Assembly: GCA_017307865.1 (NCBI GenBank)
Contig: JAFKGE010000034.1
Location: forward strand, 1 to 64,000
DNA: 64,000 bases
Source of the DNA: Burkholderiales bacterium
GTDB lineage: Bacteria > Pseudomonadota > Gammaproteobacteria > Burkholderiales > Burkholderiaceae_C
Reading direction: 5' to 3'
Shown: positions 541 to 15,762 of the stretch, piece after piece
Layout: each line of letters opens with the position of its first letter
How positions within the stretch are numbered: the stretch's first letter is position 1
The notes under the pieces: model-generated
Told to the model about the DNA's origin: nothing
Database searches by the model: none
Seen by the model: only the letters and a program-made list of their open reading frames with translations
Made by a program: the position numbers and the translations under genes

Positions 541-1035
541 GGTCGGCTCCGGTTCGGAATCGGGCGGGATTGCCCGGAACCGGCCACCCACGCCGCAGCG
601 CAAGCAGTCAGGGGTCGAAGGCGCAGCCGACAGACGGCCGCCAGGCCGCCAGCGTGCAAGGCCCGCGCAGCCCTTGACGGCGAGAACGGCGTGGTAGGTT
701 GAAAGGGCACAGCAAGACCGCCACTCCACACCCACGCCACCCCAGCCCCGGCAAGCGCAGCGCGCAGCGGCCAGGCCGCGCAGGCGTCAGGGATCAGAGC
801 CGGATGGCCGGGATGCGGCACGAAGCCCGGGGCGTAGCCCGCGAGCCCGGCGGCGGTACGCCGAGACGCTATATCGAGGTTGCATCCCGGACAACGGTCG
901 ACGATCAGGCCGTCACCGCCACTGGCATCGGCGTCCCGTACAACTTCACTTCGACTTGTGAGACAATATATCTAGTCCGACAATGATTTTGTATATTGTC
1001 ATATAAATCAATGAATTAATGATGTTGTGGGCGAA
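541..1035. promoter_or_regulatory. intergenic region with GACAATATA inverted repeat
   Basis: This 490-bp stretch has no convincing gene. Its last 80 bp turn AT-rich. GACAATATA at 962-970 is mirrored by TATATTGTC at 992-1000, with a third half-site GACAAT at 979-984. The position, 30-70 bp before the AAA+ ATPase gene, suggests an operator/promoter for the ATPase-protease operon. The regulator is not identified. Confidence 0.45.
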
Positions 1036-2190
1036 ATGAAAGAAGAGCAGTCAGATTTAGCCCAGATGGTTCGCTTGGCTTTGGCCGAGCAGACGGAAGA
1101 CGTGCGCCTGTTTGCGGCGCGGCTGGTGCGCAAGTACCGTGGAACGGCGCCCGACCTGGCCGAGCAGCTCGAACTGTTTCTGAAGTCGAAGCCGGCACGC
1201 AGCGTTTCGCCCATGCGCAAGTTGTCGCCCCAGCCATCGGCGACCCACGCCTTGCCGGTTGACGACGAATCCCGCCTCTCGCTCCTGAAGGTGTTCAAGG
1301 ACGCACCGACGAAAGACGCGCCGCTGCTGTCTAGTGATGTCGAGGATGTCCTGGGACAACTCATCGCCGAGCGCCGGCAGAGCGACCGACTGCAGGCCAT
1401 GGGGCTGATGCCGACCCGCTCGGCCATCTTTGTGGGGCCGCCTGGGGTCGGCAAGACACTCACGGCCCGCTGGCTGGCTGCGCAGTTGAAGGTGCCGCTG
1501 TACGTGCTCGACCTGACAGCCGTGATGAGCAGCCTGCTGGGCAAGAGTGGTGCCAACCTGCGGGCGGCCATCGACTTCGCCAAGCGCGAGCCGTGCGTGC
1601 TGCTGCTGGACGAGATCGATGCCATCGCCAAACGGCGCAGCGATGACACCGACGTGGGCGAACTCAAGCGCCTGGTCACGGTGATCCTTCAGGAAGTAGA
1701 CGAATGGCCCGCCAGTAGCGTATTGCTGGCGGCCACGAATCACCCGGAACTGATCGATCCGGCGCTGTGGCGCCGCTTCGACCTGGTGGTTCAGTTCAAG
1801 ACGCCCGATGAACAGGCGGTCAAGGAAGCCATCAAGCGCTTCCTGGGGCCGGACTACGCCCTCTTTGCCCGTTGGATCGATATCCTGGTGTTTGCATTCG
1901 CCGGACACTCGTTCAGCGACATCGAGCGCGACGTGCAGCGTTTCCGGCGCGCCGTGGCCCTGGGCACGACCACGGACGCCGATCTGGTCGAGGACTTCAT
2001 GAAGGCACGCGCCTTGGCGCTCGACAGGCAGGGTCGCATCGACCTGGCGGTGATGCTTGCCAAGCAGACCCGCTTGTCCCAGCACACCGTCTCCGACATC
2101 ACCGGGGTAAGCCGAGACACGATCCGCAAGTACACCAACGAGACACCTGCGGCACGAAAGGCCGCGCCCCGGAGAAAGGCTGACGCATGA
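1036..2190 (+). CDS. AAA+ ATPase with C-terminal HTH-like segment
   Basis: A 384-aa AAA+ ATPase of the FtsH/CDC48-like class. Visible motifs are Walker A GPPGVGKT (about residues 134-141), Walker B LLLDEID (about 189-195), and a sensor-1/arginine-finger stretch AATNHPELIDPALWRRFD. The last 50 residues contain RLSQHTVSDITGVSRDTIRKY, which resembles a helix-turn-helix. The start is taken at ATG 1036; an in-frame GTG at 1027 would add three residues. The stop overlaps the start of the downstream subtilisin-like protease by 4 nt (ATGA), so the two are translationally coupled and probably act together, for example with the ATPase loading or controlling the protease. AAA+/subtilase pairs recur in bacterial genomic islands; the substrate and trigger are unknown. 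Confidence 0.8.
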   Translation: MKEEQSDLAQMVRLALAEQTEDVRLFAARLVRKYRGTAPDLAEQLELFLKSKPARSVSPMRKLSPQPSATHALPVDDESRLSLLKVFKDAPTKDAPLLSSDVEDVLGQLIAERRQSDRLQAMGLMPTRSAIFVGPPGVGKTLTARWLAAQLKVPLYVLDLTAVMSSLLGKSGANLRAAIDFAKREPCVLLLDEIDAIAKRRSDDTDVGELKRLVTVILQEVDEWPASSVLLAATNHPELIDPALWRRFDLVVQFKTPDEQAVKEAIKRFLGPDYALFARWIDILVFAFAGHSFSDIERDVQRFRRAVALGTTTDADLVEDFMKARALALDRQGRIDLAVMLAKQTRLSQHTVSDITGVSRDTIRKYTNETPAARKAAPRRKADA

Positions 2191-4409
2191 GCCAAACCAA
2201 TTTCCTGATCGGTCGTGGCGAGCTGCTGACCCACGACATCGTCGGCCCGAGGCGCATGCCCGGCAAGGCCGAGGTCTACACCTTCGCGCAGGCGCGGGAA
2301 CGGTTGATTCCCCAGTTCCGCAGCGCTGCGAACGCGCTGGACGAACTGCCCGTCGACGCCTGTCCGGGCGACTTCGCGGTGGCCCGGCTGATGATGAACC
2401 CCAGCTTCATCGCTCGTTCCTATTTCCCGACCGGGCTGTTGCGCAGTACGGGGCTGGAGTCCATCGGTAGCCGCACCGTCAAGGTCAAGCCACAGGCCTG
2501 GACCCGCAAGGGGCAGCCGCAGGAGACCACGACGACCGAACTGTTCGTCGCGGGCAAGCGCCAAGCCTTCCGCAATCTTTCGCGGTGGACGGAAACCATC
2601 GACGCGGAATCCGATGAGGGCGACGACCTGGTCCACATCGAACAGTTCGCCGCTTTCGCGCCGGCGGAGCGCATCGTGCGCCTGGGCGGACCGAAGGATC
2701 GGTTCTTCGAGGTGGGCCTGCATCTGTTACCGGGCGGAGACCCGGGCCTGATCCAGAAGGCTTTCGTGAAATTCGCCCAGCGGGAGGGCGTTAAGGTCCA
2801 TAGTGAAGTCGATTTCGTCGCCGGCAACCTGTGGTTCGTACCGGTCGAAGGCAAGCCGCGTAAAGTCGAGAAGCTGGCCAGCTTCGCCTTCGTCCGGGTC
2901 ATCCGGCCGGTGCCCAAGCTGCGTGGCATCCGCCCGTTGCAACGCAGCGGTGGCCCCGCGGTGGGGTGCAGCCTGCCCATCGAGCAGGCCCTGTCGTCTG
3001 AGCCCCGTGTCGCCATCCTGGACGGCGGCCTGCCAAAGCACCACCCCATCGGTCCCTGGCTGCGCTCGTACCGCAAGCTCGACGAAGACGCCGCCGACGA
3101 CCCGGACGGCCCGGAGCACGGCCTGGGCGTGACATCGGCCGTGCTGTTCGGCCCGATCCAGCCCAACGGAACGGCCGGTAGGCCTTTCGCTCCGGTAGAC
3201 CATCTGCGCGTGCTTGACCAGGAATCGGCCGGTGAGGAACCGTTGGAGTTGTATCGCACGCTCGGTCTCATCGAACAGGTCCTGCTGTCGCGGTCCTACG
3301 AGTTCATCAACCTGAGCCTGGGGCCGGACCTCGAAGTGGAGGATCGGGAAGTCCACGCTTGGACGTCCGTCATCGACGAGTTGCTCAGCGATGGCGACAC
3401 CCTCATGACCGTGGCCGTGGGCAACAACGGGGAACGCGACCGCGAACTCGGCTACAGCCGCGTGCAAGTTCCGTCGGACTGCGTGAATGCGCTCGCGGTT
3501 GGCGCGGCCGACGACACTGGAGCGGACTGGGCTCGCGCGTCCTACAGCGCGATCGGGCCGGGCCGCAGCCCTGGCGTCGTCAAGCCGGACCTGATGGCCT
3601 TCGGCGGCAATCCAGCGTCCAAATACTTCCACGTCCTGGCGCCGAGCGCGAAACCGGTACTGACCCCGCAGCTCGGCACGAGTTTCGCGGCGCCGTACCT
3701 GCTGCGCAGCGCGGTCGGCATCCGTGCCATCCTGGGCGGCAACCTGACGCCTCTCGCCATCAAGGCCTTGCTGGTCCATGCGGCCGATCCCGGCGAGCAC
3801 GACCAGATCGAAGTGGGCTGGGGCAAGATTCCCGAGGACACCCTCGACATCATCACGTGCCCGGATGGCGTGGCCCGCGTGGTCTACCAGGGCGAGCTCA
3901 AACCCAGCAAGTACCTGCGCGCCAGCCTGCCGCTGCCCAAGGAAGGGCTGACGGGCAACGTCCGCCTGAAGGCTACTTTCTGCTACGCATCCCCCACCGA
4001 TCCGCAGGATGCCGCGGCCTACACCAAGGCCGGTCTCGAAGTCGTCTTCCGCCCCAACGACGAAAAGATCAAGGATGGCAAGAGCAACGCCGATACCAAG
4101 GGCTTCTTCGACTTGAAGAAGTTCGCCACCGAACAGGAGCGCCGCTCGGATCAGGGCAAGTGGGAAACCGTGCTGCACGGGGCCAAGCCCTTCCGTGGCC
4201 CTAGCCTCAAGAACCCCGTGTTCGATATCCACTACAACGCCCGCGACGGCGGCGGCCGGGCCACCGGCGCCGAGAAGATCCGCTACGCGTTGATCCTTTC
4301 GGTCGAGGCACCGAAGCACGCCGATCTCTACAACGACATCCTGCGCGCCTATGCCAAGACGCTGGTGCCGATCCAGCCGCAGGTGTCGTTGCCAATTAGG
4401 GTCAAGTAG
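2187..4409 (+). CDS. S8 family subtilisin-like serine protease
   Basis: A 740-aa protein with a subtilase catalytic domain in its middle third. The Asp motif is VAILDGG (about residue 278), the His motif EHGLGVTSA (about 311), the oxyanion Asn AVGNNGE (about 412) and the nucleophile motif GTSFAAP (Ser about 499). The His motif departs from the usual HGTHVAG but keeps the histidine. There is no signal peptide, so it is likely cytoplasmic. About 270 N-terminal and 240 C-terminal residues flank the catalytic core and may bind substrate or the ATPase. It is coupled to the AAA+ gene by a 4-nt overlap. A regulated intracellular protease in stress or phage defence is plausible but not shown. Confidence 0.82.
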   Translation: MSQTNFLIGRGELLTHDIVGPRRMPGKAEVYTFAQARERLIPQFRSAANALDELPVDACPGDFAVARLMMNPSFIARSYFPTGLLRSTGLESIGSRTVKVKPQAWTRKGQPQETTTTELFVAGKRQAFRNLSRWTETIDAESDEGDDLVHIEQFAAFAPAERIVRLGGPKDRFFEVGLHLLPGGDPGLIQKAFVKFAQREGVKVHSEVDFVAGNLWFVPVEGKPRKVEKLASFAFVRVIRPVPKLRGIRPLQRSGGPAVGCSLPIEQALSSEPRVAILDGGLPKHHPIGPWLRSYRKLDEDAADDPDGPEHGLGVTSAVLFGPIQPNGTAGRPFAPVDHLRVLDQESAGEEPLELYRTLGLIEQVLLSRSYEFINLSLGPDLEVEDREVHAWTSVIDELLSDGDTLMTVAVGNNGERDRELGYSRVQVPSDCVNALAVGAADDTGADWARASYSAIGPGRSPGVVKPDLMAFGGNPASKYFHVLAPSAKPVLTPQLGTSFAAPYLLRSAVGIRAILGGNLTPLAIKALLVHAADPGEHDQIEVGWGKIPEDTLDIITCPDGVARVVYQGELKPSKYLRASLPLPKEGLTGNVRLKATFCYASPTDPQDAAAYTKAGLEVVFRPNDEKIKDGKSNADTKGFFDLKKFATEQERRSDQGKWETVLHGAKPFRGPSLKNPVFDIHYNARDGGGRATGAEKIRYALILSVEAPKHADLYNDILRAYAKTLVPIQPQVSLPIRVK

Positions 4410-4514: not shown

Positions 4515-4545
4515 ACTTCCGATTTCCGGCTGCTCCTGCGACTTA
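4515..4545 (+). promoter_or_regulatory. shared bipartite promoter-like motif, copy P1
   Basis: Block ACTTCCGATTTCC, six variable bases, then block TCCTGCGACTTA. The same two blocks with the same spacing occur at 9303-9333, upstream of the ubiquitin-like operon. A partial match with the full second block and the same spacing lies at 10772-10802. P1 precedes the sigma-factor gene. Downstream of both P1 and P2 are further shared words, GCATCCC and CAGAAATG. The likely reading is a promoter for the sigma factor encoded just downstream (autoregulation). An operator for another protein of the system is the alternative. Confidence 0.6.
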
Positions 4546-4610
4546 GTTATGCGGGGGGCATCCCTCGAAACAGAAATGTGGGGTGTTCGCATGACCAACG
4601 GAAAACAACG

Positions 4611-5327
4611 ATGTACATACGAGAATCTGATTCGGCCGTAGTGGCCCTTGACGACCGTTCGCTGCGGGCCAGACTAGCGCGCACGGACTGGAAACGTGAC
4701 CCGCTCTTCATCACCGATGAGCAGGTATTCGGTCTGTTCAGTCAGGCGCGCGCCAAGGGCGACAAAGCCAGAACTGCGCTGTTCGCCGAGGCGTTTAATC
4801 AGCGCTTGCTGGAGCGCTCGCGTAAGTTCGTCCTCAAGGCGCGCATTTACCCGGGCTTTATCGACGACCTCCGTCGTGCGGCGTATGAGCTTGCATCCTG
4901 TATCTGGGAGCACCTACTTTCGAGCGATAAGCATGCTGCGCACGCGGAGAAAGCGTTCGGGCAGTTCTTTGAACGGCGGGCCATCGAGTTCCAGCGAACC
5001 TTCCTCGCAAAGAAGCGCAAGTTGCAGTCCAGCTTGGACTCGGATGACGATGATGAAGACGAGGTAGTGTCGACGACCGACGACATCGACGAGCTAAAAG
5101 AGTTCAATACACCGGACCTTCTGGCTGCCCGGCGGCAGGAGTTCGAGCGGGTGAATAGCCGCCTGCTTGAAATCCTCACGCAGAAGGAATACGCCACCTA
5201 CACACTGATCTACGGCGCCGACTGGCAGGTCCAGGAAGTAGCTGCGGCGCTCAAAGTGACCGTCAAGAGCGTCAACACCTACAAGAGAAGTGCGCTCGCA
5301 AAAATCGACAAGGAGTTCAAGCAATGA
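4611..5327 (+). CDS. sigma-70-like RNA polymerase sigma factor
   Basis: About 238 aa. The C-terminal 75 residues (from about ARRQEFERVNSRLLEILTQK) look like sigma region 4, with an HTH in the segment VQEVAAALKVTVKSVNTYK. The helical N-terminal part with FIDDLRRAAYE and AFGQFFERRA could be region 2. The two are joined by a linker rich in Asp/Glu (DSDDDDEDE), unusual for an ECF sigma. The start is taken as ATG 4611; a GTG at 4578 would add 11 residues, and neither has a strong ribosome binding site. It overlaps the following gene by 4 nt. The motif P1 just upstream recurs before the ubiquitin-like operon, which makes this a candidate dedicated sigma factor for the cluster. A divergent phage-type regulator is the alternative. 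Confidence 0.6.
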   Translation: MYIRESDSAVVALDDRSLRARLARTDWKRDPLFITDEQVFGLFSQARAKGDKARTALFAEAFNQRLLERSRKFVLKARIYPGFIDDLRRAAYELASCIWEHLLSSDKHAAHAEKAFGQFFERRAIEFQRTFLAKKRKLQSSLDSDDDDEDEVVSTTDDIDELKEFNTPDLLAARRQEFERVNSRLLEILTQKEYATYTLIYGADWQVQEVAAALKVTVKSVNTYKRSALAKIDKEFKQ

Positions 5328-5965
5328 CAACGCCCAACCGCAGGCTGTCGCTCGATGAAGTGCTTGATGAGTTCTTCTACTCGGCCGACAAGCCGACCCC
5401 TGCCCAAGTGCTTCACGCGTGCCAAGCCCACCCCGAGTACCGAGCCGACATCGTGGAGTTCGCGGCCCTGTGGATCGCCTACGAAGCATCGCCCGAGCCC
5501 ACCGAAGATGCCTTGCTTCCGAAGGTGGCCAAAGACGACGTGTTGCGCCTGCAGAGCTTTGTTCTCAATCGGCTTCACGAACTGGACCAGGGGTCTGCCT
5601 CCAGTTCGCAAGCTGAAACTGCACGCAAGGCCGTCGAATCGCTTGCAGGGAAAAGCCTGAGGCAAGCTGCCGCAGCAGCTGGCCTTGGCGCTTCCGCACT
5701 GCTTCTGACGAAGGTTCTTACCAAGAGCATCGTCAACGTTCCCACCAAGGTTCTTCGCGACTTGGCTGCGCATCTCAATGTTGCGCTTGCCGAACTCCAA
5801 CAGTGCCTGGGACCGTCTTTGGCGGGTGCCAAGAGCTTTAGAGCCAAAGGAATTCCAAACGCCTCTGCTCAGGAAACTTGGGAAGCTGCAGTGCGTTCAC
5901 TTTCGGTCAGCGACGAAGAGAAACAGCGCCTGCTGGCTCTACAAACTAGAGAGGGTGACTCGTGA
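5324..5965 (+). CDS. unknown 213-aa protein, possible antagonist of the sigma factor
   Basis: No family recognised. It overlaps the sigma-like gene by 4 nt upstream and the peptidase-helicase gene by 4 nt downstream, so the three are tightly coupled. The N-terminal half is acidic and helical (SLDEVLDEFFYSADKPT). The middle, from about residue 105, has SLAGKSLRQAAAAAGLGAS followed by VPTKVLRDLAAHLNV. This resembles the pattern of XRE-type regulators that sit beside ImmA/IrrE peptidases. There is no membrane segment. In ImmR/ImmA and DdrO/IrrE pairs the neighbour is the cleaved repressor, so this protein could be an anti-sigma factor or repressor cleaved by the downstream peptidase domain. That role is inference. 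Confidence 0.6.
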   Translation: MTTPNRRLSLDEVLDEFFYSADKPTPAQVLHACQAHPEYRADIVEFAALWIAYEASPEPTEDALLPKVAKDDVLRLQSFVLNRLHELDQGSASSSQAETARKAVESLAGKSLRQAAAAAGLGASALLLTKVLTKSIVNVPTKVLRDLAAHLNVALAELQQCLGPSLAGAKSFRAKGIPNASAQETWEAAVRSLSVSDEEKQRLLALQTREGDS

Positions 5966-8900
5966 CCCCGTTTCACAGAGCCCGGGAGGCTGCGACGCAG
6001 TTGAGGCGCCAGCTGTTCGGCGATGAGGCGTCATCGGGTATTCCATCGAACCAGGTCATCGACGCCGCAGCGGCCGAAAACGCCGAGGACTTCGACATCT
6101 CTGATGCGGCACCTGATGACGAAGCTCTCGGGACCGCTGATGCCGTTCTGATCCGCAAGTTCCGACAAATCGTCGTACGCAACGACGTGCCGAGCGGTGA
6201 ACGCGCGTTCCTCATCGCACACGAGTTCGGCCACTGGAAGCTCCATCACGAAGGGCACGAGGGCTGCCATAAGGTCGTTGATTCGACCTTGAAGCCTGAA
6301 GACGGTGACACTTTCGGTGCCCAGAAAATTGAAGCCTATGGCGCTCGCGAGCGAGCCGAACTCCAGGCAAACATCTTCGCCAGAGAGCTTCTCCTTCCAC
6401 GCGCGGTGGCCCGTGGGCTCTTCCTCGCAGGAAAGACTGCAACACAACTCGCGCAAGACCTAGACGTCCCCCTGGAGTTGGTTCGGCAACAGTTGCTCGA
6501 TGGTTTGCTTCTTCCCGAGCCGCCAGCGAGCAGTGATGAGCCGCCCCAGCCCATTACGCCAACCCAGGACCAGATGGCGGCAGCCACGTCGTCGGCCAAG
6601 ACCTCCCTGGTGGTAGCCGGGCCTGGCACCGGCAAGACAGCCACGCTCCTCATGAGGGTGCAGCATCTACTCGCCGAGGGGGCCAAGCCCGAGAGTTTGC
6701 TGCTGCTGACGTTTTCAAATCGGGCAGCGCGAGAGCTGGTTGACAGGCTGCAAGAACTTGGTGTCTCGAACGCCCATGACATCTGGGTCGGCACGTTTCA
6801 CGCCTTCGGCCTGGAGTTCCTTCGCAAGAACCACGAGCAGTTCGGCCTGCGGCCGCGCTTCGGTGTTGCCGATAAGATGGCGCAGATTGCAGTTCTCGAG
6901 CCCCACATCTACGCCCTTGGCCTGAGGGCGTTCAATCCGCTTGGCGACCCCCTCGACTGGCTGAAGGACGTCGTCTCGACCATCCAGCGAGCAAAGGACG
7001 AACTCGCCGATGCCGACGAGTTTGCCGACGCAGTTGAGCAATCGGCACTGGACACCCCCGCTGAGGTGCTGGCCAAGCAGCACGATGTCGTCAAGCTATA
7101 CAGGTGCTATGAATCGAAGATGCGTGCGAACGGCAGCCTCGTCGACATGGGCGACCTCGTCATGCTCCCGGCCCTTGCGCTGACAAAGGAGTTCGCCAAG
7201 TACGCCGCGAGTGTTGGCCGATTCAAGCACATCCTCGTCGACGAATACCAAGATGTGAACCGGGCAAGTGCTCAACTTGTGAAGGCATTGGCCGCTCACG
7301 CCAGGAGCCTCTGGGTCGTGGGAGATGCACGGCAAGCCATTTACCGATTCCGCGGTGCGTCCATGCGCAACATCGTCCGCTTCGGCGACGACTTTCCAAC
7401 CCACACGACGTTCCCGCTCAACGAGAACCGGCGCAGTTTCGAAGAGGTAATCCGCGTCTTCGAGCACACGGGCCGCGAGGGCAATCCTCTACAGATGGTG
7501 CTCCCACTCGATGACGTAGGGTCGGCGCGCGGACACAGCGGCATCAAGCCTCGCCATGTTCAGTGCGCGAATGACGACGTGGTACATGGAGAACTCGCGG
7601 CCAATGTCCGTCGCATCCGTGGGCTGGGCGTGGCTTACCGAGACCAGGTCATCCTTGCAAGCACCCACGACACCTGCAGCGCCGCGGCAGATTCACTGAA
7701 CACGGCAGGGGTGCCTGCTCTGCACCTCGGCGACATCTTCCAGCGGCCCGAGGTCAAGGACCTGTTGGCATTGCTGCAGCTGTTCATCGACCGTTCAGGA
7801 AGCGGCCTGCTTCGAGTCTCACAACTCCCAGGCCTCCAGTTGCCGCCAACGGATGTCGAGAAGCTGCTTGCCTGGTGTAAAGTGAATCGGCCGGTGCCGC
7901 TGTCCTGGGTTGCCGCGCCGCCTCCTGGGCTATCCAGCAGGGGCATGGCGGCTCTGCAGCGGTGGGCGACTACTTTCGATGGCCTCGAGTCAACGGACTC
8001 TCCATGGGAAGTCGCCTGCCAACTGCTACTGGACCGGACAGGCATTCTTCGTGCCCATCTGGCCGGCAGCGGCATCCTCGAGATCACTCGTCGCATCGCG
8101 CTCTGGCAGTTCATCTACTACCTGCGGGTGCCGGACGGCGGTCGGGCGTACCAGACCGTCGGCAGCTTCATCACTCGCTTGCGTCGCCGTCTGCGCGTCG
8201 GCGATGACCGTGAGCTCCGTATCCCGCCTCCGGAGGCAGACAGTCTCGATGCGGTAGCCGTCATGACAATTCATGGGAGCAAAGGCCTTGAGTTCGAGGC
8301 GGTCCATCTTGTCGACATCGACGCCAGGCATTTCCGCATGGGCGCAGATTCCGACCTTGTCCCGCAGTCCCTGTTGCAGTCCATCGCTTCCGTCCAGAAC
8401 TTCGAGGAGCAAAGTGAGGCCTCGAACAAGCTGTACGTGGCACTATCTCGGGCCCGGGAGCACTTGGTCCTCTACGAGACCAAGGCGATGTACAACGCCG
8501 AGTGCGTTGCGGCCATTACTGGCGCCGCTCATCTACTCGAACGAGTTCAAGGCAAGGCCACTGTTCCCAAGGCGCTGGCGCCGTCATTTGTCAGCAGCTC
8601 TGTGCTCGCGCCTGCGGTATACGAGCTCACGGGCTTCTTGTCCTATCGGATGTGTCCGCGACGCTACTACTACGACTTCATCAAGGAACTAAGCCCTGCA
8701 GCCGGACTGCATCCAGCGGCCTTGATTGAAGGGGCCGTCATGCGCGAGCTCTTCGCTCCCTACGGCGAAGAGCCGGGAGCGCCGCCTCTGGAAGTCGAAA
8801 AGGTGCTGGCTTCTCTTGGGCCAGCCTTCAAGGAGTCCGTGCCGCATCTCAGAGCCTACGCGGACCAGCTACTAACCTTTGGTCGTTCTTGGCTTGGCGC

Positions 8901-9285
8901 GCAGCGCGCAATGATGGCGAAGCCGTTTGACGTTAAGTGCGCAGGCATCCCGCTTCACGTCTCGCCCCACCGCATCACAAAGTCCGGGTCCGTGGTCAAA
9001 ATTGAGTTCGTGCGGGCCAAGCCGTCGGGAAAGCTGTCGCGGCAACACAAGACCCTCAAATGGGTGTTGAAGTACCTGGCGGAGGCCTATCCCAACTACT
9101 CGTTCCAAGGCAGCATCTTTGTGCTGAGTACAGGCACTGAAGAGTCCGTCTCCCCATACGGCCGACTGCCTGCCGACTTCTTCCTCGTGCCAATTGCTCA
9201 AGCGCTCATGGCCGGCAACTTTGAGGCCAGGCTCAATCCATGGGAGTGCCCGAAGTGCAGGCACTTCTTGCATTGCCCGGCCTAG
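5962..9285 (+). CDS. ImmA/IrrE metallopeptidase - UvrD/Rep helicase - Fe-S nuclease-like fusion
   Basis: A 1107-aa fusion starting at GTG 5962, with an AGAGGG ribosome binding site and a 4-nt overlap with the previous gene. Residues 1-170 form an ImmA/IrrE-type zinc peptidase: H87-E-F-G-H91 and a downstream RAELQANIFARELLLP helix with the third ligand. Residues about 200-860 are an SF1A helicase: Walker A GPGTGKT (about 219-225), VDEYQDVN, NENRRS, TIHGSKGLEFEAVHLV, YVALSRAREH. The last 250 residues resemble an AddB/RecB nuclease with Cys ligands in MCPRRYYYDF and CPKCRHFLHC. The expected PD-(D/E)XK acidic residues are not obvious (KIEFVRAK), so nuclease activity may be lost. It could sense damaged or invading DNA and signal through proteolysis. 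Confidence 0.85.
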   Translation: MTPFHRAREAATQLRRQLFGDEASSGIPSNQVIDAAAAENAEDFDISDAAPDDEALGTADAVLIRKFRQIVVRNDVPSGERAFLIAHEFGHWKLHHEGHEGCHKVVDSTLKPEDGDTFGAQKIEAYGARERAELQANIFARELLLPRAVARGLFLAGKTATQLAQDLDVPLELVRQQLLDGLLLPEPPASSDEPPQPITPTQDQMAAATSSAKTSLVVAGPGTGKTATLLMRVQHLLAEGAKPESLLLLTFSNRAARELVDRLQELGVSNAHDIWVGTFHAFGLEFLRKNHEQFGLRPRFGVADKMAQIAVLEPHIYALGLRAFNPLGDPLDWLKDVVSTIQRAKDELADADEFADAVEQSALDTPAEVLAKQHDVVKLYRCYESKMRANGSLVDMGDLVMLPALALTKEFAKYAASVGRFKHILVDEYQDVNRASAQLVKALAAHARSLWVVGDARQAIYRFRGASMRNIVRFGDDFPTHTTFPLNENRRSFEEVIRVFEHTGREGNPLQMVLPLDDVGSARGHSGIKPRHVQCANDDVVHGELAANVRRIRGLGVAYRDQVILASTHDTCSAAADSLNTAGVPALHLGDIFQRPEVKDLLALLQLFIDRSGSGLLRVSQLPGLQLPPTDVEKLLAWCKVNRPVPLSWVAAPPPGLSSRGMAALQRWATTFDGLESTDSPWEVACQLLLDRTGILRAHLAGSGILEITRRIALWQFIYYLRVPDGGRAYQTVGSFITRLRRRLRVGDDRELRIPPPEADSLDAVAVMTIHGSKGLEFEAVHLVDIDARHFRMGADSDLVPQSLLQSIASVQNFEEQSEASNKLYVALSRAREHLVLYETKAMYNAECVAAITGAAHLLERVQGKATVPKALAPSFVSSSVLAPAVYELTGFLSYRMCPRRYYYDFIKELSPAAGLHPAALIEGAVMRELFAPYGEEPGAPPLEVEKVLASLGPAFKESVPHLRAYADQLLTFGRSWLGAQRAMMAKPFDVKCAGIPLHVSPHRITKSGSVVKIEFVRAKPSGKLSRQHKTLKWVLKYLAEAYPNYSFQGSIFVLSTGTEESVSPYGRLPADFFLVPIAQALMAGNFEARLNPWECPKCRHFLHCPA

Positions 9286-9302
9286 GCGGAGCTGGTCGAC
9301 GC

Positions 9303-9333
9303 ACTTCCGATTTCCAGGGCTTCCTGCGACTTA
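9303..9333 (+). promoter_or_regulatory. shared bipartite promoter-like motif, copy P2
   Basis: Identical to P1 in both conserved blocks (13 and 12 bases) and in the 6-base spacing, and 54 bp upstream of the ubiquitin-like gene start. Being outside any gene and upstream of the second operon, it fits a promoter for the Ubl-E2-JAB-E1 transcript. GCATCCC and CAGAAATG are also shared downstream of P1. Confidence 0.6.
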
Positions 9334-9386
9334 CCCAGCATGAGCAGCGCATCCCGCGCGGCTCGTCTAGCTGAAAGGGAGCAGAA

Positions 9387-9884
9387 ATGCCCACTCGCGT
9401 TTACATCCAGTCGGAATTCTTCTCCGACATCAAGTTCGTCGAAGTCAACGACGAGGCCACAGTCGCTGAGCTGAAGCACGCTGTCCTGGCGCTGCTGCCG
9501 GCCGGCACCGAGGCTTCTGACCTGACCCTCTCGGTCGAAGACGATGACGACGACACCCACGGCCACACGACCCACGTCAAGCACCTCAAGAAAGAGCACG
9601 GCGTGCGAGTGCACCTCCACCGCTGCAAGCAGGTGGAAGTGCAAGTCCGCTTCGGCGCCGAGGTCGTGCACCACAAGTTCCGCCCGGCGACCACCGTCGG
9701 CCGCGTGCGCCTGTGGGCCGGCGAGAAGTTCGGCATGGCGCCGGGCGACATCGCCGAGCACGTCCTGCAGATTGCCGGCACGACCGAGCAGCCCGACGTG
9801 GACATCCACATCGGCACGCTGACCAAGTGCCCGCAGTGCTCGGTGACCTTCGACCTGGTGCCCGCGCACCGCATCAACGGCTAA
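9387..9884 (+). CDS. tandem ubiquitin-like protein (Bil/BilA-like)
   Basis: A 165-aa protein made of two apparent beta-grasp repeats, about residues 1-78 and 79-150, separated near the charged DDDDDTHGH segment. A short C-terminal tail contains CPQC and ends ...HRING. The terminal residue is glycine, so the protein could be adenylated without prior trimming. Gene context is the strongest evidence: E2-like, JAB peptidase and E1-like genes follow directly. That set matches bacterial ISG15-like (Bil) or other prokaryotic ubiquitin-like conjugation operons, whose Ubl is conjugated to targets, in Bil to phage structural proteins. A good AAAGGGAG ribosome binding site precedes the start. Assignment to Bil rather than a sister system is not certain. 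Confidence 0.72.
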   Translation: MPTRVYIQSEFFSDIKFVEVNDEATVAELKHAVLALLPAGTEASDLTLSVEDDDDDTHGHTTHVKHLKKEHGVRVHLHRCKQVEVQVRFGAEVVHHKFRPATTVGRVRLWAGEKFGMAPGDIAEHVLQIAGTTEQPDVDIHIGTLTKCPQCSVTFDLVPAHRING

Positions 9885-9894
9885 GGGGCGAGGT

Positions 9895-10353
9895 ATGGCA
9901 CCGGACGAGCAATCGCTGCGTGCCGACCTCGCGTCGGCGCGCTTTCTCTCGGGCGAAGACCGCAACCGCTGGCAGTTCAAGAAGCTGGAGTGGCCCTTCG
10001 TCTACATCAACGTCATCGCCCGCGACCTGCGCGAGTACACGCTGCGGCTGGAGTGCAGCGGCTTCCCGACGCCGCCGCCCACAGGTACGTTCTGGGACCT
10101 GTCGACGAACAGCAAGCTGTCGTTCGACAAGTGGCCGCAAGGCGGCGAGCGCCTGCAGCTGGCCTTCAAGCCCGGCTGGAAGACAGGGGATGCGCTTTAC
10201 ATCCCCTGCGATCGCGAAAGCATCGTCGGCCATGAGTGCTGGTTTGCCCAGTACCCGCAGCTCATCTGGAAGCCCGCCAAAGGCATCAGCCACTACCTGG
10301 AGGTGGTTCATGACCTTCTTCAAAGCCGCGACTATGTCTGCGCCCCTGCTTGA
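9895..10353 (+). CDS. E2-like ubiquitin-conjugating fold protein (BilB-like)
   Basis: 152 aa, 10 bp after the Ubl gene. The order and size fit the prokaryotic E2-family proteins of ubiquitin-like operons. The sequence has a beta-rich first half ending in GFPTPPPTGTFWD, the Pro-rich turn typical of E2 folds, and a candidate catalytic cysteine in LYIPCDRES. A second cysteine lies in GHECWF and another near the C-terminus. Its last 44 bp overlap the JAB gene in another frame, implying coupled translation. The expected role is to accept the activated Ubl from the E1-like protein and pass it to targets. Identification rests mostly on context plus the fold-like pattern. Confidence 0.65.
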   Translation: MAPDEQSLRADLASARFLSGEDRNRWQFKKLEWPFVYINVIARDLREYTLRLECSGFPTPPPTGTFWDLSTNSKLSFDKWPQGGERLQLAFKPGWKTGDALYIPCDRESIVGHECWFAQYPQLIWKPAKGISHYLEVVHDLLQSRDYVCAPA

Positions 10354-10825
10354 GGTGCCTGCCGCGCTCTGGGCGGAGTTGATGGCGCACCTGCGTGCGC
10401 AAGGCGGCGGCGTTCGCGAGAGCGGCGCCTTCCTCCTTGGGCACAAAGCCGACGCTGACCGCGTGGTGCTGCGGTTCCTGCCCTACGAGCAGCTGCAACC
10501 CGACGCGCTCCGCAACGACCACGTGTCCCTGAAGGCCGCGAGTTTCGCGAAGCTGTGGGAGGTCTGTCGCGCTGAAGGCATGACCGTCGTGGCGGACGTG
10601 CACACGCATCCCTTCGGCCCCGGCCAGAGTCGGTCGGACCGGGCGAACCCGATGGTCGCCTTGAAGGGGCATATCGCGCTAATCGTGCCCCGGTTCGCCA
10701 AGGGCAACTCGCGCCCCCGCGACCTCGGGCTGTACGTCTACGAAGGCAACCACCAGTGGGCGTCGTACTCGGGATCTGATGTCGACCGCCTCCTGCGACT
10801 TACCAATGCTGGAGTTTCCCAATGA
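10310..10825 (+). CDS. JAB/MPN (Mov34-type) deubiquitinase-like peptidase (BilD-like)
   Basis: 171 aa from ATG 10310, chosen because GGAGGTGG lies just upstream; an internal ATG at 10334 is the alternative. The JAMM zinc-peptidase signature is complete: a conserved Glu in GVRESGAFLLG (about residue 35), then HTHPFGPGQSRSD giving H-x-H and the S-x-x-D ligands (about 97-110). Such enzymes in ubiquitin-like operons remove or mature the Ubl. It overlaps the E2-like gene by 44 nt and the E1-like gene by 4 nt. Its 3' end contains the third copy of the shared promoter-like motif, so coding sequence and regulatory site share bases here. Confidence 0.8.
   Translation: MTFFKAATMSAPLLEVPAALWAELMAHLRAQGGGVRESGAFLLGHKADADRVVLRFLPYEQLQPDALRNDHVSLKAASFAKLWEVCRAEGMTVVADVHTHPFGPGQSRSDRANPMVALKGHIALIVPRFAKGNSRPRDLGLYVYEGNHQWASYSGSDVDRLLRLTNAGVSQ
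10772..10802 (+). promoter_or_regulatory. shared promoter-like motif, copy P3 (partial), inside the JAB gene
   Basis: The second block TCCTGCGACTTA is identical to P1 and P2. At the same distance upstream is TCTGATGTC, 7 of 9 identical to TCCGATTTC in the first block. It ends 19 bp before the E1-like start codon and lies within codons for the JAB C-terminus (RLLRLT). It may be an internal promoter that adds E1 transcripts. Chance similarity of the weaker first block cannot be excluded. Confidence 0.4.
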
Positions 10826-12270
10826 CTGATTTCAACGCCGATTCCATGCACCGGCTGGCAAAGATGGCCTTGGACGCCGGCGAGGTCGCCTCGCCCGAGG
10901 AGGCGGTGGCCCTGTTCTCTCGCTATCGGCTGCGCATCCATCTCGGCCAAGGCTGGGCCAGCATGCTCGCCGGTCAGGCCTGCTTCTTGACCGCACTGAA
11001 TACGGCCGTGCGCGCCTTCCTGGGCGGCGTCGAGGTCTACGGCGACCTAGCCGTTGCGCTCGACGTCCCGCTGTACCAAGGGCGCGGTGCCCGGGTCGTC
11101 GCTGAAGACCTCGGTGCCAAGGTCGCCAACAACGCCGCCTCGGACCTGCCGACGCTCGTGCTCGGTGCCGTCCCTGAGGGCACGCCCGCGGCGTTTTGCG
11201 TTCAACTTAGCTGGGACCACTGGCGCTTCGAGATTGCGCCCGCCGCTGCGGGCGGTGGGCTGGCCTGCACGGACGACAATCCCCTCGCGGGCGTTGGCGC
11301 TGCGGCGCTGGGGGTCAACGAGGCGTTCATGCACGTCCGTGGCGACCTGGCTGAGGCCGGCCACCGAAACGTCGGCATGTCGCTCTGGAACCCGCTCGCG
11401 GTCGCCGACTGGCGCGACGACGCACACAAGGGCCCCGAGCTCGCCTACTTGCCGAAGTCCCTATGGCTCGTCGGCCTGGGCCACCTGGGCCAGGCCTACG
11501 CATGGACGCTGGGACTGCTGCCCTATCCGGCCGATGGTCGCCCGCACCTGGTGCTCCAAGACTTCGACAAAGCCGCCAAGTCCAATCTCAGCACCTGCTT
11601 ACTGTTGTGGGCGTCGGATCTGCTCAAGCCCAAGGTCAGAGCGGTGGCGAGCCGGCTCGAGGCCGCGGGCTTCACCACCGCGCTGGTCGAGCGCCGTTTT
11701 GGCCCCGGGCATCGGGTCATGATCGACGAGCCGACCGCGGCCCTCTTCGGCGTCGACAACGTGGTCGCGCGCCGCGACCTCGATACCGCCGAGTTTTCGC
11801 TGGTCGTCGAGGCCGGGCTTGGCAGCGGGCATCGCGATTTCCGGAACATCCGGCTGCACACGTTCCCGGGCCCGCGCCGACCGTCGGAAATCTGGACGGC
11901 GGAATCTGCCGCGCAAGCCTTCGTTGAGTTGAATGACACCTACAAGAAGTTGGCTGACGAGCGCCAGGACATCTGCGGGATGACGCTGCTGGCCTCTCGC
12001 GCCGTAGCCACGCCGTTCGTCGGGGCGCTAGCGGCGGTGCTGGCACTGTCCGAGGTCATGCGCCCGCTCCACGGCGGCCTGGTTCACGCCGCCCTGGACG
12101 CGCAGATGAAGAGCCTGCGCCATCGCACTGGCGCAGCTCCAATCGCGTACCAAGGGCTGCAGACGGCCTTTGTTCAAGCCGAAAAGCGGTTGTCCGGCCG
12201 TACAGGGGAGGTTGGTGAGCAGGCGCCGCTACGGCCGCTACGGCCGCCACCGGCGAGGCTGCCTTTCTGA
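10822..12270 (+). CDS. E1-like ThiF-family Ubl-activating enzyme (BilC-like)
   Basis: 482 aa. A ThiF/MoeB-type Rossmann segment starts at about residue 213: LWLVGLGHLGQAYAWTLG (GxGxxG), followed by LVLQDFDKAAKSNLST, the usual Asp and Asn/Arg-like positions for ATP and substrate. About 210 residues precede it and probably form a second, non-catalytic half. C-terminal helices end in a short Arg/Pro-rich tail. The expected reaction is adenylation of the Ubl C-terminal glycine and transfer to the E2-like protein. It is last in the Ubl-E2-JAB-E1 series and overlaps the JAB gene by 4 nt. Its own 3' end overlaps a small membrane-protein gene by 56 nt. Confidence 0.78.
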   Translation: MTDFNADSMHRLAKMALDAGEVASPEEAVALFSRYRLRIHLGQGWASMLAGQACFLTALNTAVRAFLGGVEVYGDLAVALDVPLYQGRGARVVAEDLGAKVANNAASDLPTLVLGAVPEGTPAAFCVQLSWDHWRFEIAPAAAGGGLACTDDNPLAGVGAAALGVNEAFMHVRGDLAEAGHRNVGMSLWNPLAVADWRDDAHKGPELAYLPKSLWLVGLGHLGQAYAWTLGLLPYPADGRPHLVLQDFDKAAKSNLSTCLLLWASDLLKPKVRAVASRLEAAGFTTALVERRFGPGHRVMIDEPTAALFGVDNVVARRDLDTAEFSLVVEAGLGSGHRDFRNIRLHTFPGPRRPSEIWTAESAAQAFVELNDTYKKLADERQDICGMTLLASRAVATPFVGALAAVLALSEVMRPLHGGLVHAALDAQMKSLRHRTGAAPIAYQGLQTAFVQAEKRLSGRTGEVGEQAPLRPLRPPPARLPF

Positions 12271-12625
12271 AGCGGTGGATGACTCCGCGCGCATCGCCGC
12301 GAAGTTTGGCCCTCTCGGAGCTCTATGGACTGGCGTGATTGGCTTCGCCGTCTTCTATGGGGGGCTTCCTGCCTGCATCTCGGCCTGGAGCGAGGAGAGC
12401 AAGGCCAACCTCAAGGGCCCAGCAGCGGCGGCCTTCGCGAACCTGCTGGACCAGGTCATGTGGCATCGCTTCATATCGCCTTGCCAGTGGGCCGGCATCG
12501 CCATCCTGCTGGTGTGCTCGGCCATCGCGATCTGGAAATGTCTCGACCGGACTGACCTCGATGATGAAAAGGCGAATCTCTTGAGCGCCGTCTCGAAAGT
12601 CGTCAGCCGTTTGATTGGGCACTGA
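12215..12625 (+). CDS. small two-helix membrane protein after the Ubl operon
   Basis: 136 aa from GTG 12215, with GGGGAGG just upstream, overlapping the E1-like gene in another frame. The first 20 residues are basic (SRRRYGRYGRHRRG). Two hydrophobic segments follow, LGALWTGVIGFAVFYGGLPACI and WAGIAILLVCSAIAIW. They fit an inner-membrane hairpin with a soluble C-terminal tail. No family recognised. The overlap suggests co-translation with the conjugation genes, so it may be a target, anchor or effector of that system; it could also be an unrelated passenger. Confidence 0.55.
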   Translation: MSRRRYGRYGRHRRGCLSEAVDDSARIAAKFGPLGALWTGVIGFAVFYGGLPACISAWSEESKANLKGPAAAAFANLLDQVMWHRFISPCQWAGIAILLVCSAIAIWKCLDRTDLDDEKANLLSAVSKVVSRLIGH

Positions 12626-12889
12626 GCGAGTGGCATCGGTCGCAGCCCTACCTCTCTGCTGAGTTCCATGCAATCCCGCCCCCGCATTGGAGTGAATCCC
12701 ATCGGCTGAGCCACCGGGAGTCAGGTATAGGCCAGCTTGCTGGACCAGCTAATCTTCGAACTCGTTGAGTGGTTGATAGCCAAGCGCCAAGTGCAGATGC
12801 TTGGCGTTGTAGACCTCTTCAATGAACCTCGGCAGTCGGGCTGCGACATTGGCGAAAGTCTCATCGCCGCCGATGTAGATGTTCTCGAC

Positions 12890-14479
12890 CTAGCCCGGAT
12901 ATTTCACCAGTAGCCGGCAAGCCGAGTTCAGCGACACGGTGAAGGAGTTTGCCGGTCTGATTGCGGCGCGAAGCAATCACTGAACGGGGTGGAGCTGATT
13001 TGCGGGGACAGCACCCCCTTACCCCCGTTGTTTGTCAGCGTGCCGGGGACAGCACTGGACGAACTTCAAGGGCCCAGCGCGGCCAGCCGCGCCGCAGCCG
13101 CGGCAAACAGCTCGCGCAGCGGGTGGTGACTGGCCAGCATGACCCGCACGCGGCGCGTGTTGCGCACGATGGCCGCTCCGATCTTGAGCAGCCGCCAGCG
13201 AATTGTTGCGGCCGTCGCGCGCTCGAGTTCGGTCGCTTCAAGCGCGAGCTGGCGCAAGCGCACCATCAGCGTATAGGCAAGGGCTGCCAGCAGCAGCCGC
13301 AACTGGTTGGCCGCGAAGCGGTGGCAACTGGCCCGGGTGCCAAACAGGTCGAGTTGGGCCTCCTTGATGCGGTTCTCCGCCTCGCCGCGCTGGCAGTACA
13401 GCCGGTCATACAGGTGGACGGCATCGCCCGGGAGGTTGGTCACCACGAAGCGCGGGTTGGTACCTTGGGCACCGTATTCGAGCCGCGTGATCACGCGCCG
13501 CTGGCGGTTCCAACTCTTGGCCGCATAGGCGAATTCGTCGATCAGGCGCTGCTTGACGCCGCTGGCCATGTAATCGTCGGCCATGGCCGCTTCGACGTAC
13601 TGCACCGCCTCGTGCAGTCGCGCGTTGCGCGCCAGACCAATGATGTAGCCCACGCCCGAGCGCTCGCACCACTGCAGCAGGCGGCGGCGACAGAAGCCCG
13701 AGTCGGCGCGCACGATGATGCGCGCCTCGGGCCAGGCGCGGCGAAGCCGGGCAACGATCAGCTTGATGACGGCCGCAGCGTTCTTCGCTCCATCGATGCG
13801 GCTTGGCCGCAAGACGCAGGCGAGCATCGCCTGGCCGCAGAACACGTACAGCGGCAGGTAACAGTGATGGTCGTAGTAGGCGTGGAACTGCGCCAGCTCC
13901 TGACCACCGTGCAGCGGCACGTCCGACGCGTCGATGTCCAGCACCAGTTCTTCGGGCGCGCTCTGGTGGCCGGCGATGAACTGCGCGATCAGCACTTCGT
14001 GCAATGCCCAGGCCTGGCCGCGCGTGGCGCGGTTGTCCAGGCGGCTGAAGGTGGGCGCCGAGGCCAACATCTGGTCGCGGCCCACCGCGGTTTGCATCAG
14101 CACGTCGCCGCGCAGCGCCTGGTGGTCGTTCAAGTCTTCGTAGCCGCAGCACAGCCCGTAGATGCGTTGCGCCAGCAGCTCACGCAGGCCATGCACGATG
14201 CGCGAGGGCTCCCGCGGATCGGGCAACGCGGCCGCCGCCGCGCGGCTCAGTCCGATATGTCGATCGACCTGGCGCAACAGCAGCACGCCACCGTCGCTGC
14301 TCAGATCGCCGCCGCTGAAGTCGGCTTCGATCACCCGGCGGCCAAGCCGTCCGAACTCGATCTTGCGCTGGGTACACTTTGGCATCGGCAGTCCTCGGTT
14401 GTCATTGGCGTCGAATACCTATGACAACGGGCTCAGCCACGAGGCTGCCGACCTATCATTGATGAAATATCCGGGCTAG
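12890..14479. mobile_element. IS1380-family insertion sequence with CTAG target duplication
   Basis: Terminal inverted repeats beginning CCCGGATATTTCA are at 12894 (left) and, inverted, ending at 14475 (right). Both are flanked by the 4-bp direct repeat CTAG (12890-12893 and 14476-14479), the target-duplication size usual for IS1380. The element carries one transposase gene on the minus strand and is inserted into an older IS3 remnant. Intact ends, duplication and gene suggest recent, possibly active transposition. Confidence 0.85.
13066..14385 (-). CDS. IS1380-family DDE transposase
   Basis: 439 aa, full length for the family. Motifs include an N-terminal SGGDLSSDGGVLLLRQVD, VLDIDASDVPLHGGQE (first catalytic Asp), IIVRADSGFCRR (second Asp) and YCQRGEAENRIKE (YREK-like with the catalytic Glu). 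It has the DNA-binding tail typical of the group. It occupies most of the element between the terminal repeats. The frame is uninterrupted. Confidence 0.9.
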   Translation of the reverse strand: MPKCTQRKIEFGRLGRRVIEADFSGGDLSSDGGVLLLRQVDRHIGLSRAAAAALPDPREPSRIVHGLRELLAQRIYGLCCGYEDLNDHQALRGDVLMQTAVGRDQMLASAPTFSRLDNRATRGQAWALHEVLIAQFIAGHQSAPEELVLDIDASDVPLHGGQELAQFHAYYDHHCYLPLYVFCGQAMLACVLRPSRIDGAKNAAAVIKLIVARLRRAWPEARIIVRADSGFCRRRLLQWCERSGVGYIIGLARNARLHEAVQYVEAAMADDYMASGVKQRLIDEFAYAAKSWNRQRRVITRLEYGAQGTNPRFVVTNLPGDAVHLYDRLYCQRGEAENRIKEAQLDLFGTRASCHRFAANQLRLLLAALAYTLMVRLRQLALEATELERATAATIRWRLLKIGAAIVRNTRRVRVMLASHHPLRELFAAAAARLAALGP

Positions 14480-14544: not shown

Positions 14545-15762
14545 CTACGCAACTTTTCGCAGCGTTGGCGTGAGGCCGTCCTTCCGTGCACAGTCCAGGT
14601 GATCGGCCCACGCTTGGAGCATCACGCGCCTTTCGTCTTGGTAGGCATGTCGGTTGTAAGCCGCGCGTACGGCGTTGGCCGGCACATGTGCCAGGCAGTG
14701 TTCGATCACGTCCACGCTTGCGCCCAGGCTGTTGAAGTGCGTGCTGAAGGCCGCCCTCATGCCGTGCGGTGTCCCCTCGCCGCCGAATCCAAGCCGTTCT
14801 ATCAAGGCGTTCAGGCTGCGATTGGCCATGGGCCGGCGGGGGTCAAGCCGGTTCGGGAACAGGTGTTCGCGACCGGCAGGGACGATCTTGCGAAGCCGCG
14901 TGAGCAACTCGACAGCCTGACCTGACAGCGGCACCCAGTGGGGCCGCTTCGCCTTCATGCGAGCTGCTGGAATTTCCCAATGGGCAGCTTCCAGGTCCAG
15001 TTCGTCCCAGCGGGCTTCGATGACTTCCGCTTTCCGACAGGCGGTCAACAAAACGAGCAGCATGGCGATACGCGTTTCCTCGTTGATCGTGGTGGCTGCA
15101 TTGAGGGCGCGGAGAAAGTCGCCGATCTGTTCACCAGCCAGGGCGGGGTGGTTGGACTGGTTGCGCTTCTTCATGACGCGCAGTGGTGGTACCGGGTTGT
15201 TATCCATCAACCCGGAGTCGATTGCGTACTCGAACATGCCCCAGAGATGGTTGCGAAGATTGCGGGCCACCTCGGGCGCGCGCTTCTCAACATCTTTCAG
15301 AAGCGCAGTCAGCTCCAAGCGCGTGATGCCGTCCATTGGGCGGTTCTTCAGCTTCGGCATCAGATCGTTGTCGATCTCGCGCTGGCGCTGTTTGACGGTG
15401 GATGGGCGCAGGCTGGCGGCCGTGGCCGTATTCCAGTCGGCCATCACTGCGGCGAACGTGCCCCGCTCGCGCTCCAACTGTTCCTGGGCCTGGGTGACCC
15501 GCAGTTCCTGTTTGGCCTGGACCGGGTTGATACCTTGGGCGACCAGCTTGCGGGAGTCGCTGTGCAACCCGCGTGCCTCCGCGAGGCCAATTTCAGGAAA
15601 TGCGCCGAGCGACTGTTTGCCCTCGACGCCACCCACGCGGAACTTGTAGCGCCAGAGCTTCGAGCCGTTGGACTGAACAAGCAGGTACAGCCCGCCGCTG
15701 TCGGCGAGCTTGTAGGCGCGTTCTTGCGCCTTGGCGGACTTGATTTGGATGGTGGTGAGCAT
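14545..15762 (-). CDS. P4-type tyrosine recombinase / island integrase
   Basis: 405 aa with an N-terminal DUF4102-like arm-binding region (KLADSGGLYLLVQSNGSKLWRYKFRVGG), a SAM-like core-binding domain and a catalytic domain. Visible active-site parts are LTACRKAEV (first Arg), TPHGMRAAF (His-x-x-Arg), LAHV and the tyrosine in AYNRHAY. It is at the edge of the defence-type island, transcribed toward it, as expected for an island integrase whose attachment site would lie beyond 15,763. No tRNA gene is present there, so the target site is not identified. Confidence 0.9.
   Translation of the reverse strand: MLTTIQIKSAKAQERAYKLADSGGLYLLVQSNGSKLWRYKFRVGGVEGKQSLGAFPEIGLAEARGLHSDSRKLVAQGINPVQAKQELRVTQAQEQLERERGTFAAVMADWNTATAASLRPSTVKQRQREIDNDLMPKLKNRPMDGITRLELTALLKDVEKRAPEVARNLRNHLWGMFEYAIDSGLMDNNPVPPLRVMKKRNQSNHPALAGEQIGDFLRALNAATTINEETRIAMLLVLLTACRKAEVIEARWDELDLEAAHWEIPAARMKAKRPHWVPLSGQAVELLTRLRKIVPAGREHLFPNRLDPRRPMANRSLNALIERLGFGGEGTPHGMRAAFSTHFNSLGASVDVIEHCLAHVPANAVRAAYNRHAYQDERRVMLQAWADHLDCARKDGLTPTLRKVA

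Follow-up and report, generated by a model that had tools for sequence, protein, structure and literature searches.

Bacterial ISG15-like (Bil) operons protect against phages by conjugating BilA to virion proteins, the bilB product presumably being the E2-like component of the published Bil scheme. Autoregulated operons of extracytoplasmic function (ECF) sigma and anti-sigma factors carry a promoter before their own operon as well as before their target. Among the controllers described for immune operons is the peptidase CapP, which we take to be ImmA-like, together with its partner CapH. As presented in the accessible part of PMC13373217, the published controllers of Bub, Bil and CBASS operons are repressors relieved by DNA damage: of 544 Bub operons, 219 have CapW or CapH+CapP and 59 have CapK+CapS, which also occurs at five Bil operons, and CapH+CapP consists of a helix-turn-helix (HTH) repressor and a peptidase activated by single-stranded DNA, with CapP acting on CapH. 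Here, we describe a bipartite DNA motif in a 64,000-nucleotide stretch of a Burkholderiales genome (contig JAFKGE010000034.1; the whole stretch is called the window), where it precedes both a three-gene cassette opening with an ECF-like sigma gene and a bilABCD operon. The motif copies are probably promoters of this cognate sigma factor (4611-5327), standing before the sigma operon, before bilA and, in weaker form, inside bilC. The sigma cassette is not named in the accessible part of PMC13373217, the words sigma, helicase and UvrD do not occur in the main text of a 2006 survey of prokaryotic ubiquitin relatives (PMC1779556), and no report of this cassette or of a sigma-type controller with Bil was found in the open-licence literature.

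The motif, ACTTCCGATTTCC-N6-TCCTGCGACTTA, is present exactly at 4515-4545 (P1, before the sigma operon) and 9303-9333 (P2, before bilA), both on the forward strand. The earlier note had described these blocks, six bases apart and upstream of two operons, and had noticed no other full copy in 64 kb; with up to three mismatches allowed, these two were the only matches across the window, and none of 100 dinucleotide shuffles gave any. Both copies can be read as promoter-like, with a -35 element TTCCGA (4517-4522 in P1, 9305-9310 in P2), a 16-nt spacer and a -10 element CGACTT (4539-4544 and 9327-9332). When the genome (3,915,286 bases in 91 contigs) was searched exactly, block 1 occurred only at these two places and block 2 at the same two and at 10791-10802, all on the same contig. 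No further full copy was found in the 3.9-Mb genome, where counts rest on exact searches and a mismatch-tolerant search may undercount, as with one mismatch allowed it gave exact matches alone for block 2 although about ten would be expected. The core TTCCGA-N16-CGACT was found exactly at three places in the genome, namely P1, P2 and one on another contig, with about 1.5 expected, and the additional match is at chance level. A consensus scan revealed no sigma-70 consensus promoter at or near P1 or P2, and a housekeeping sigma-70 promoter was rejected on this basis. The words GCATCCC (4558 and 9349, 12 and 15 bases past the motif) and CAGAAATG (4571 and 9382), listed in the earlier note as shared downstream, do occur at both copies, but were rejected as parts of the element because their spacing varies and they are not conserved in all relatives. 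The ATG at 4576, within the sigma-side copy of the latter, is not in the reading frame of the sigma gene, which has its conserved start at the ATG at 4611.

To place the motif in a wider context, 30 loci were compared, comprising the window and 29 others, each with a gene in the sigma position. The relatives were sampled from Alpha-, Beta- and Gammaproteobacteria and one cyanobacterial plasmid; the loci share ancestry and are not phylogenetically independent, and some sites were spotted by eye and then tested. In total, 26 loci were chosen by sigma or helicase similarity (L013-L018, L051-L057, L060, L065-L071 and L080-L084), taken from top or spaced rows of hit lists and thus a sample and not a census; L015 is the same locus as L014 and is counted only among these 26. 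Left outside the counts were L063 and L064 (weak BilD matches), L059, L062 and L074 (without a sigma gene) and L075/L076 (fragment). In several loci, "sigma gene" is a name given by position and alignment, because model matches are absent or below cutoff.

In 27 of the 30 loci, a pair of matching sites was found, of which one precedes the ubiquitin-like operon and the other is placed to govern cassette genes. Sixteen of these loci have sites before the sigma gene and before the operon, and 11 combine an in-gene site with an operon-side site (in L080, the operon itself is gone). The hexamers are 16-17 nt apart across loci, with one case of 15 nt. In the window's clade (the window, L013, L014, L016, L017 and L018), both sites are present with zero indels between the blocks. 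Across six close loci, the blocks are 100% and 88-93% identical, as opposed to 47-55% for the spacer and 30-43% for the upstream flank, and pairing P1 with P2 in these loci gave 100% and 89% for the blocks and 37% for the spacer. The 25 bases that are identical at two places might have suggested a recent duplication without function or a recombination scar. This explanation has next to no probability and was rejected by block-versus-flank conservation, as the blocks alone are kept while spacer and flanks have diverged, and both copies persist in loci whose sigma is only 37-48% identical to that of the window. The earlier note had proposed that a dedicated sigma drives itself and the conjugation genes, a model to be given up if related loci with the same genes lacked the motif; the two sites in 27 of 30 loci speak for it, as do the promoter spacing, the co-variation within most loci and the sigma-like neighbour. 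The proposal is refined in three respects: the cassette has three genes and not one, the target is the Bil operon, and in one sigma clade no site was found before the sigma gene, the site within it being placed to drive the second and third cassette genes.

Comparison of the loci shows a promoter-like element, two per locus, which drifts by clade, the two sites of one locus mostly changing together. Versions common to both sites include TTCCGG-16-CGATCA (L051), TTCCGG-16-CGATTA (L052), TTCCGG-17-CGATTA (L054 and L071), TTCCGG-16-CGAT[AT]T (L058), TTCCGA-16-nTTGTA (L060 and L070) and TTCATG-16-GGATT (L061), and L069 has a CCCATTTTT-type pair, while in L072, TTCC[CT]T is separated from CGATCA by 17 nt at one site and 16 nt at the other. 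For 14 of 16 Bil loci, a within-locus pair test with 300 dinucleotide shuffles gave at most two shuffles that were as similar as the observed pair. A matrix built from 25 sites of other clades placed both window sites in a tie for rank 1 of 127,920 positions, the matrix sites having been selected from upstream stretches ahead of training. The held-out ranks of 37 sites spanned 1-535: those of the window, L051-L054/L071 and L058 clades and of L053 were 1-5, those of the multiubiquitin clade were 6-30, and the two of L072 were 4 and 20. The sequence pattern of the window's clade gave no match in 397 other genomes of a phylum sample, the versions of other clades lying outside this pattern. An additional TTCCGA-16-CGACTA copy, possibly a tandem promoter, was observed in Variovorax L014 (9760-9787), about 70 bases before P1.

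The placement of the second site differs in the multiubiquitin-type sigma clade, which comprises 11 loci (L056, L057, L065-L068 and L080-L084). When the stretch upstream of the sigma gene was compared in seven multiubiquitin loci, none gave a convincing pair (6 to 235 of 300 shuffles; the value of 6 stems from an AT-rich stretch in L057). No shared site was thus found ahead of that gene in this clade, where the second site sits inside it. For five new loci, the prediction was fixed beforehand. A matrix of 26 earlier sites, some of them from relatives of the new loci, placed the site before the ubiquitin-like gene in the top two positions in each of the four loci where that gene persists; in all five, the top two also included a position within the sigma gene, some 210 bases ahead of the second gene. 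When 19 sigma genes were scanned with a matrix built from six multiubiquitin-clade sites on the operon side, the best site lay at that in-gene place in 11/11 members, with 1-27 of 2000 in a synonymous-codon null; the eight other sigma genes gave 397 to 1956 of 2000, the matrix not being tuned to their versions. Acinetobacter loci carry TACCGA-CGATTA at both sites, L065-L068 and L082-L084 carry TACCGG-CGATTG, and in L080, TTCCGG can be fitted to the site after the helicase gene only by allowing a 15-nt spacer. The sigma factor of this clade would drive the second gene, the helicase gene and the ubiquitin-like operon, but not itself. Site placement follows the sigma and not the operon, because L083 has this sigma type together with a Bil operon.

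A further in-gene site is P3, on the forward strand inside bilC and before bilD (10774-10801; -35 ATCTGA at 10774-10779, -10 CGACTT at 10796-10801). It corresponds to the third, partial copy that the earlier note had placed at 10772-10802, in which block 2 is exact and block 1 degenerate, yet similar beyond chance. Sites of this type lie 49-52 bases before the bilC end in the window, L017, L018 and L014, and score 17-19, with true sites at 27.6-30.3. We read P3 as a weaker internal promoter for bilD, judging from its position and sequence. No third site before bilD was found in nine loci of other Bil clades. It is doubtful that the in-gene sites, both in the sigma gene of one clade and in bilC, are by-products of the protein motifs YRxxLxxAI and SDVxxLLRLT, whose residues they do encode. 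The sigma-gene nulls given above disfavour this in 11/11 members, related loci that do not count as independent, and the in-gene -10 keeps CGATT over unusual codons while the encoded amino acid changes (A, S or T). For bilC, the synonymous nulls are 17 (window), 3 (L017), 2 (L018) and 0 (L014) of 1000, but 981 of 1000 in L016, the one of five loci of the window's clade without a P3-type site, while 18 control genes of the same loci never fell below 175 of 1000.

The gene nearest to P1 (4611-5327, forward strand, 238 amino acids) had been called sigma-70-like in the earlier note, an assignment that curated models bear out in kind, with the window copy remaining below their cutoffs. It matches NCBIfam TIGR02937 with an E-value of 3.1e-9 and 36.7 bits (cutoff 42.9), covering profile positions 31-164 of 165, and Pfam Sigma70_r4_2 with 20 bits (cutoff 25.7); the latter is matched above cutoff in L051, L054 and L072. 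Of the aligned members, 19/24 match TIGR02937 and 17/24 match Sigma70_r4_2 at E<=0.1, and the six best matches in a PDB profile search are sigma factors. When ten sigma-position genes were checked singly, those of L058, L069 and L080-L084 matched TIGR02937, all below cutoff. A first sigma search of the phylum sample returned weak matches alone, in 6 of 397 other genomes.

Several observations weigh against promoters read by a cognate sigma factor. Within the window, the sigma protein stays below the curated cutoffs of both models, and the HTH or anti-sigma role of the second protein rests on weak matches and gene order. The structure models of both proteins are poor (pLDDT 53 and 55, from 3-row alignments), and they gave no significant fold match. 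None of the 24 members matches a Pfam region-2 family at E<=0.1, and the sigma-position genes of L055, L060 and L061 match no NCBIfam model. Among the 30 loci, L053 has one site and L055 and L073 have none that could be found. Pair similarity is weak in L052 (13/300) and L070 (32/300); in L051 the best pair has moved onto an A-rich stretch, in L014 it uses the extra upstream copy, and the two sites of L081 differ at two hexamer positions. Relatives included, a locus's own pair was strictly best against the operon sides of 22 other loci in 7/23 cases, and the cross-clade matrix is weak in diverged clades, with ranks of 8-535 in L060/L070 and of 38 and 41 in L061. Because L060 and L061 hold site pairs without a recognised sigma, confidence in the sigma promoters was lowered slightly, and they remain probable.

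The same two loci fit another explanation, in which the motif is an operator bound by the second cassette protein, acting as a CapH-like repressor that the ImmA-type peptidase cleaves, with the sigma-like protein as an accessory. The second protein shows XRE-like and HTH_31 traces (E 0.0025 in L056 and 0.034 in the window), the second position is occupied by a gene in all 30 loci, the HExGH motif is kept in 23/23 helicase proteins, and the Bil operon of L074 adjoins an annotated HTH and ImmA/IrrE pair instead. However, the motif does not read as a dyad, two unlike blocks at 16-17 nt are better suited to -35 and -10 elements, and an ordinary promoter to be repressed is not evident, no sigma-70 consensus lying near P1 or P2. 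An operator is therefore unlikely, and we infer that the cognate sigma reads the sites, rather than the second HTH-like protein. Predicted folds of six leaders raise another option, as stem-loops come after both P1 and P2 in most members of the window's clade; the one in the predicted bilA leader (9342-9364, forward strand) contains GCATCCC, and in L014 this stem is predicted to be kept through paired changes. There is only a very slight chance that the element acts in the RNA leader structure instead of as a promoter, as folds of the window's two copies including the blocks show no common block structure, and similar sites elsewhere lie inside coding sequence.

The cassette upstream of bilABCD consists of the ECF-like sigma, a small putative HTH protein and an ImmA/M78-UvrD fusion, all encoded on the forward strand. 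The second gene (5324-5965, 213 amino acids) is putatively HTH or anti-sigma-like, as suggested by gene order in relatives and weak HTH matches. The third (5962-9285, 1107 amino acids) encodes an ImmA/M78 metallopeptidase joined to a UvrD helicase (Pfam M78 47.8 bits, UvrD 197.4 bits) with C-terminal cysteines, a part that reads as nuclease-like; four Cys are kept, like HExGH, in 23/23 members of the helicase alignment. Neither the sigma protein nor the second protein has a PADLOC match, and the only models matched by the helicase are generic helicase models of other systems. The ubiquitin-like conjugation genes of the earlier note are an anti-phage bilABCD operon, adjacent, in order and complete by PADLOC models (192.5-567.9 bits), with bilA encoding the ubiquitin-like protein (9387-9884, 192.5 bits), followed on the same strand by bilB (9895-10353, 205.2 bits), the JAB peptidase gene bilC (10310-10825, 220 bits and Pfam Prok-JAB) and the E1/ThiF gene bilD (10822-12270, 567.9 bits). 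Directly upstream of the cassette lies an IetAS defence pair (ietA and ietS, 1027-4409, AAA ATPase and subtilase) with no motif copy before it, and an annotated AAA and S8 peptidase pair occupies the matching position in Xanthomonas L016. The block appears to belong to a mobile island, because minus-strand open reading frames that by eye are transposase-like (13066-14385) and tyrosine integrase-like (14545-15762) follow the Bil operon.

In the relatives, a full ubiquitin-like operon adjoins the cassette in 24 of the 26 similarity-picked loci, as seen by annotation or tblastn; it is either bilABCD or a multiubiquitin and ThiF operon that in some cases includes DUF6527. In L013, an Aquincola plasmid, a deletion has left at 14779-15209 a remnant in which bilA 1-110 runs into the bilD end, the cassette and both motif copies remaining, and in L080, an IS66 element stands at the operon's place, with no tblastn match to any operon gene. 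Among the best 60 of 116 matches, an E1 gene lies about 0.8 kb downstream on the same strand in at least 12 of 15 non-Acinetobacter rows, and L081 and L082, outside those 60, also have an E1 gene downstream. Among seven further loci picked by BilD, two (L072 and L073) carry the cassette, two more (L058 and L061) fill the sigma and second positions but lack the helicase, and L059 is without cassette genes. At 2007-3579 in L073, a Sphingorhabdus plasmid, an IS256-type element interrupts the sigma gene, and no motif was recognised before its Bil operon. Other arrangements were also observed. Mesorhizobium L053 (10309-12850) has the cassette beside multiubiquitin, an unknown gene and ThiF, with a promoter site on the operon side only, and Robbsia L055 (3075-10303) has cassette-like genes with a divergent multiubiquitin operon. 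In L074 (5009-8986), a divergent HTH regulator, an ImmA/IrrE peptidase and an exonuclease-domain gene replace the sigma cassette at a Bil operon, an arrangement that would be an alternative controller for the Bil system. L062 has a stretch (12480-12630) that by eye reads as the helicase's cysteine-rich C-terminus near an insertion element, with no tblastn match, as well as TTCCTT-16-GGTTAA in the region before bilA. The viral collection yielded a single contig, L076 from IMG/VR (7858-8594), which carries the end of the sigma gene together with the second gene and has no helicase or Bil match in the stretch available.

Taken together, the following mechanism could be envisaged. The ECF-like sigma would read -35 TTCCGA and -10 CGACTT across the 16-nt spacer, and once active, it would raise its own cassette and the anti-phage Bil operon together, because the promoter stands before the sigma operon, bilA and bilD. 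More speculatively, the second protein may hold the sigma inactive, and the ImmA peptidase-UvrD helicase may sense DNA ends or single strands arising from phage replication or damage. By analogy with the action of CapP on CapH, the peptidase might then cleave the second protein and free the sigma. It is tentatively proposed, at somewhat less than even confidence, that the cassette represents a fourth controller family of bacterial ubiquitin-like operons and the first based on a sigma factor: a sensor-switch for Bil or multiubiquitin operons that would respond when foreign or damaged DNA is processed, with private, co-diverging promoters that in one large clade lie in sigma region-4 coding sequence. 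This bears on how costly immune operons stay silent and are then switched on. If true, a sigma switch with its own promoter would offer an orthogonal, positive-feedback route, unlike the published repressor controllers, and the tie between an ImmA-type peptidase and a helicase suggests what is sensed. Promoters written within the sigma gene, with synonymous changes constrained, would give a compact case of overlapping codes, and the exact promoter sequences are available for reporter tests.

Compared with known systems, the locus contains a complete bilABCD operon as in other Bil systems, to which a sigma cassette is added that is undescribed with Bil in the literature found. Like CapK+CapS and CapW, which as far as the accessible part of PMC13373217 describes them are transcriptional control cassettes beside Bub, CBASS and Bil operons, it adjoins a ubiquitin-like operon; it differs in having no GHKL/STAS pair and no WYL among the Pfam matches of the three cassette proteins, and in that sigma activation is proposed instead of relieved repression. 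The likeness to CapH+CapP, as described in the same part of that source, is closer, in that an immune operon is preceded by neighbouring genes for a peptidase and a small putative HTH protein, and a link to DNA damage is probable. Here, however, the M78 peptidase is not separate but fused to UvrD in one 1107-amino-acid protein, the cassette includes a sigma factor as well, and the DNA site in common resembles a promoter rather than a repressor operator. With autoregulated ECF operons, finally, the locus shares a sigma, an adjacent candidate inhibitor and matching promoters before its own operon and its target, but its regulon appears to be one neighbouring defence operon, its promoter can sit inside the sigma gene, and release of the inhibitor is proposed to occur via a helicase-borne peptidase.

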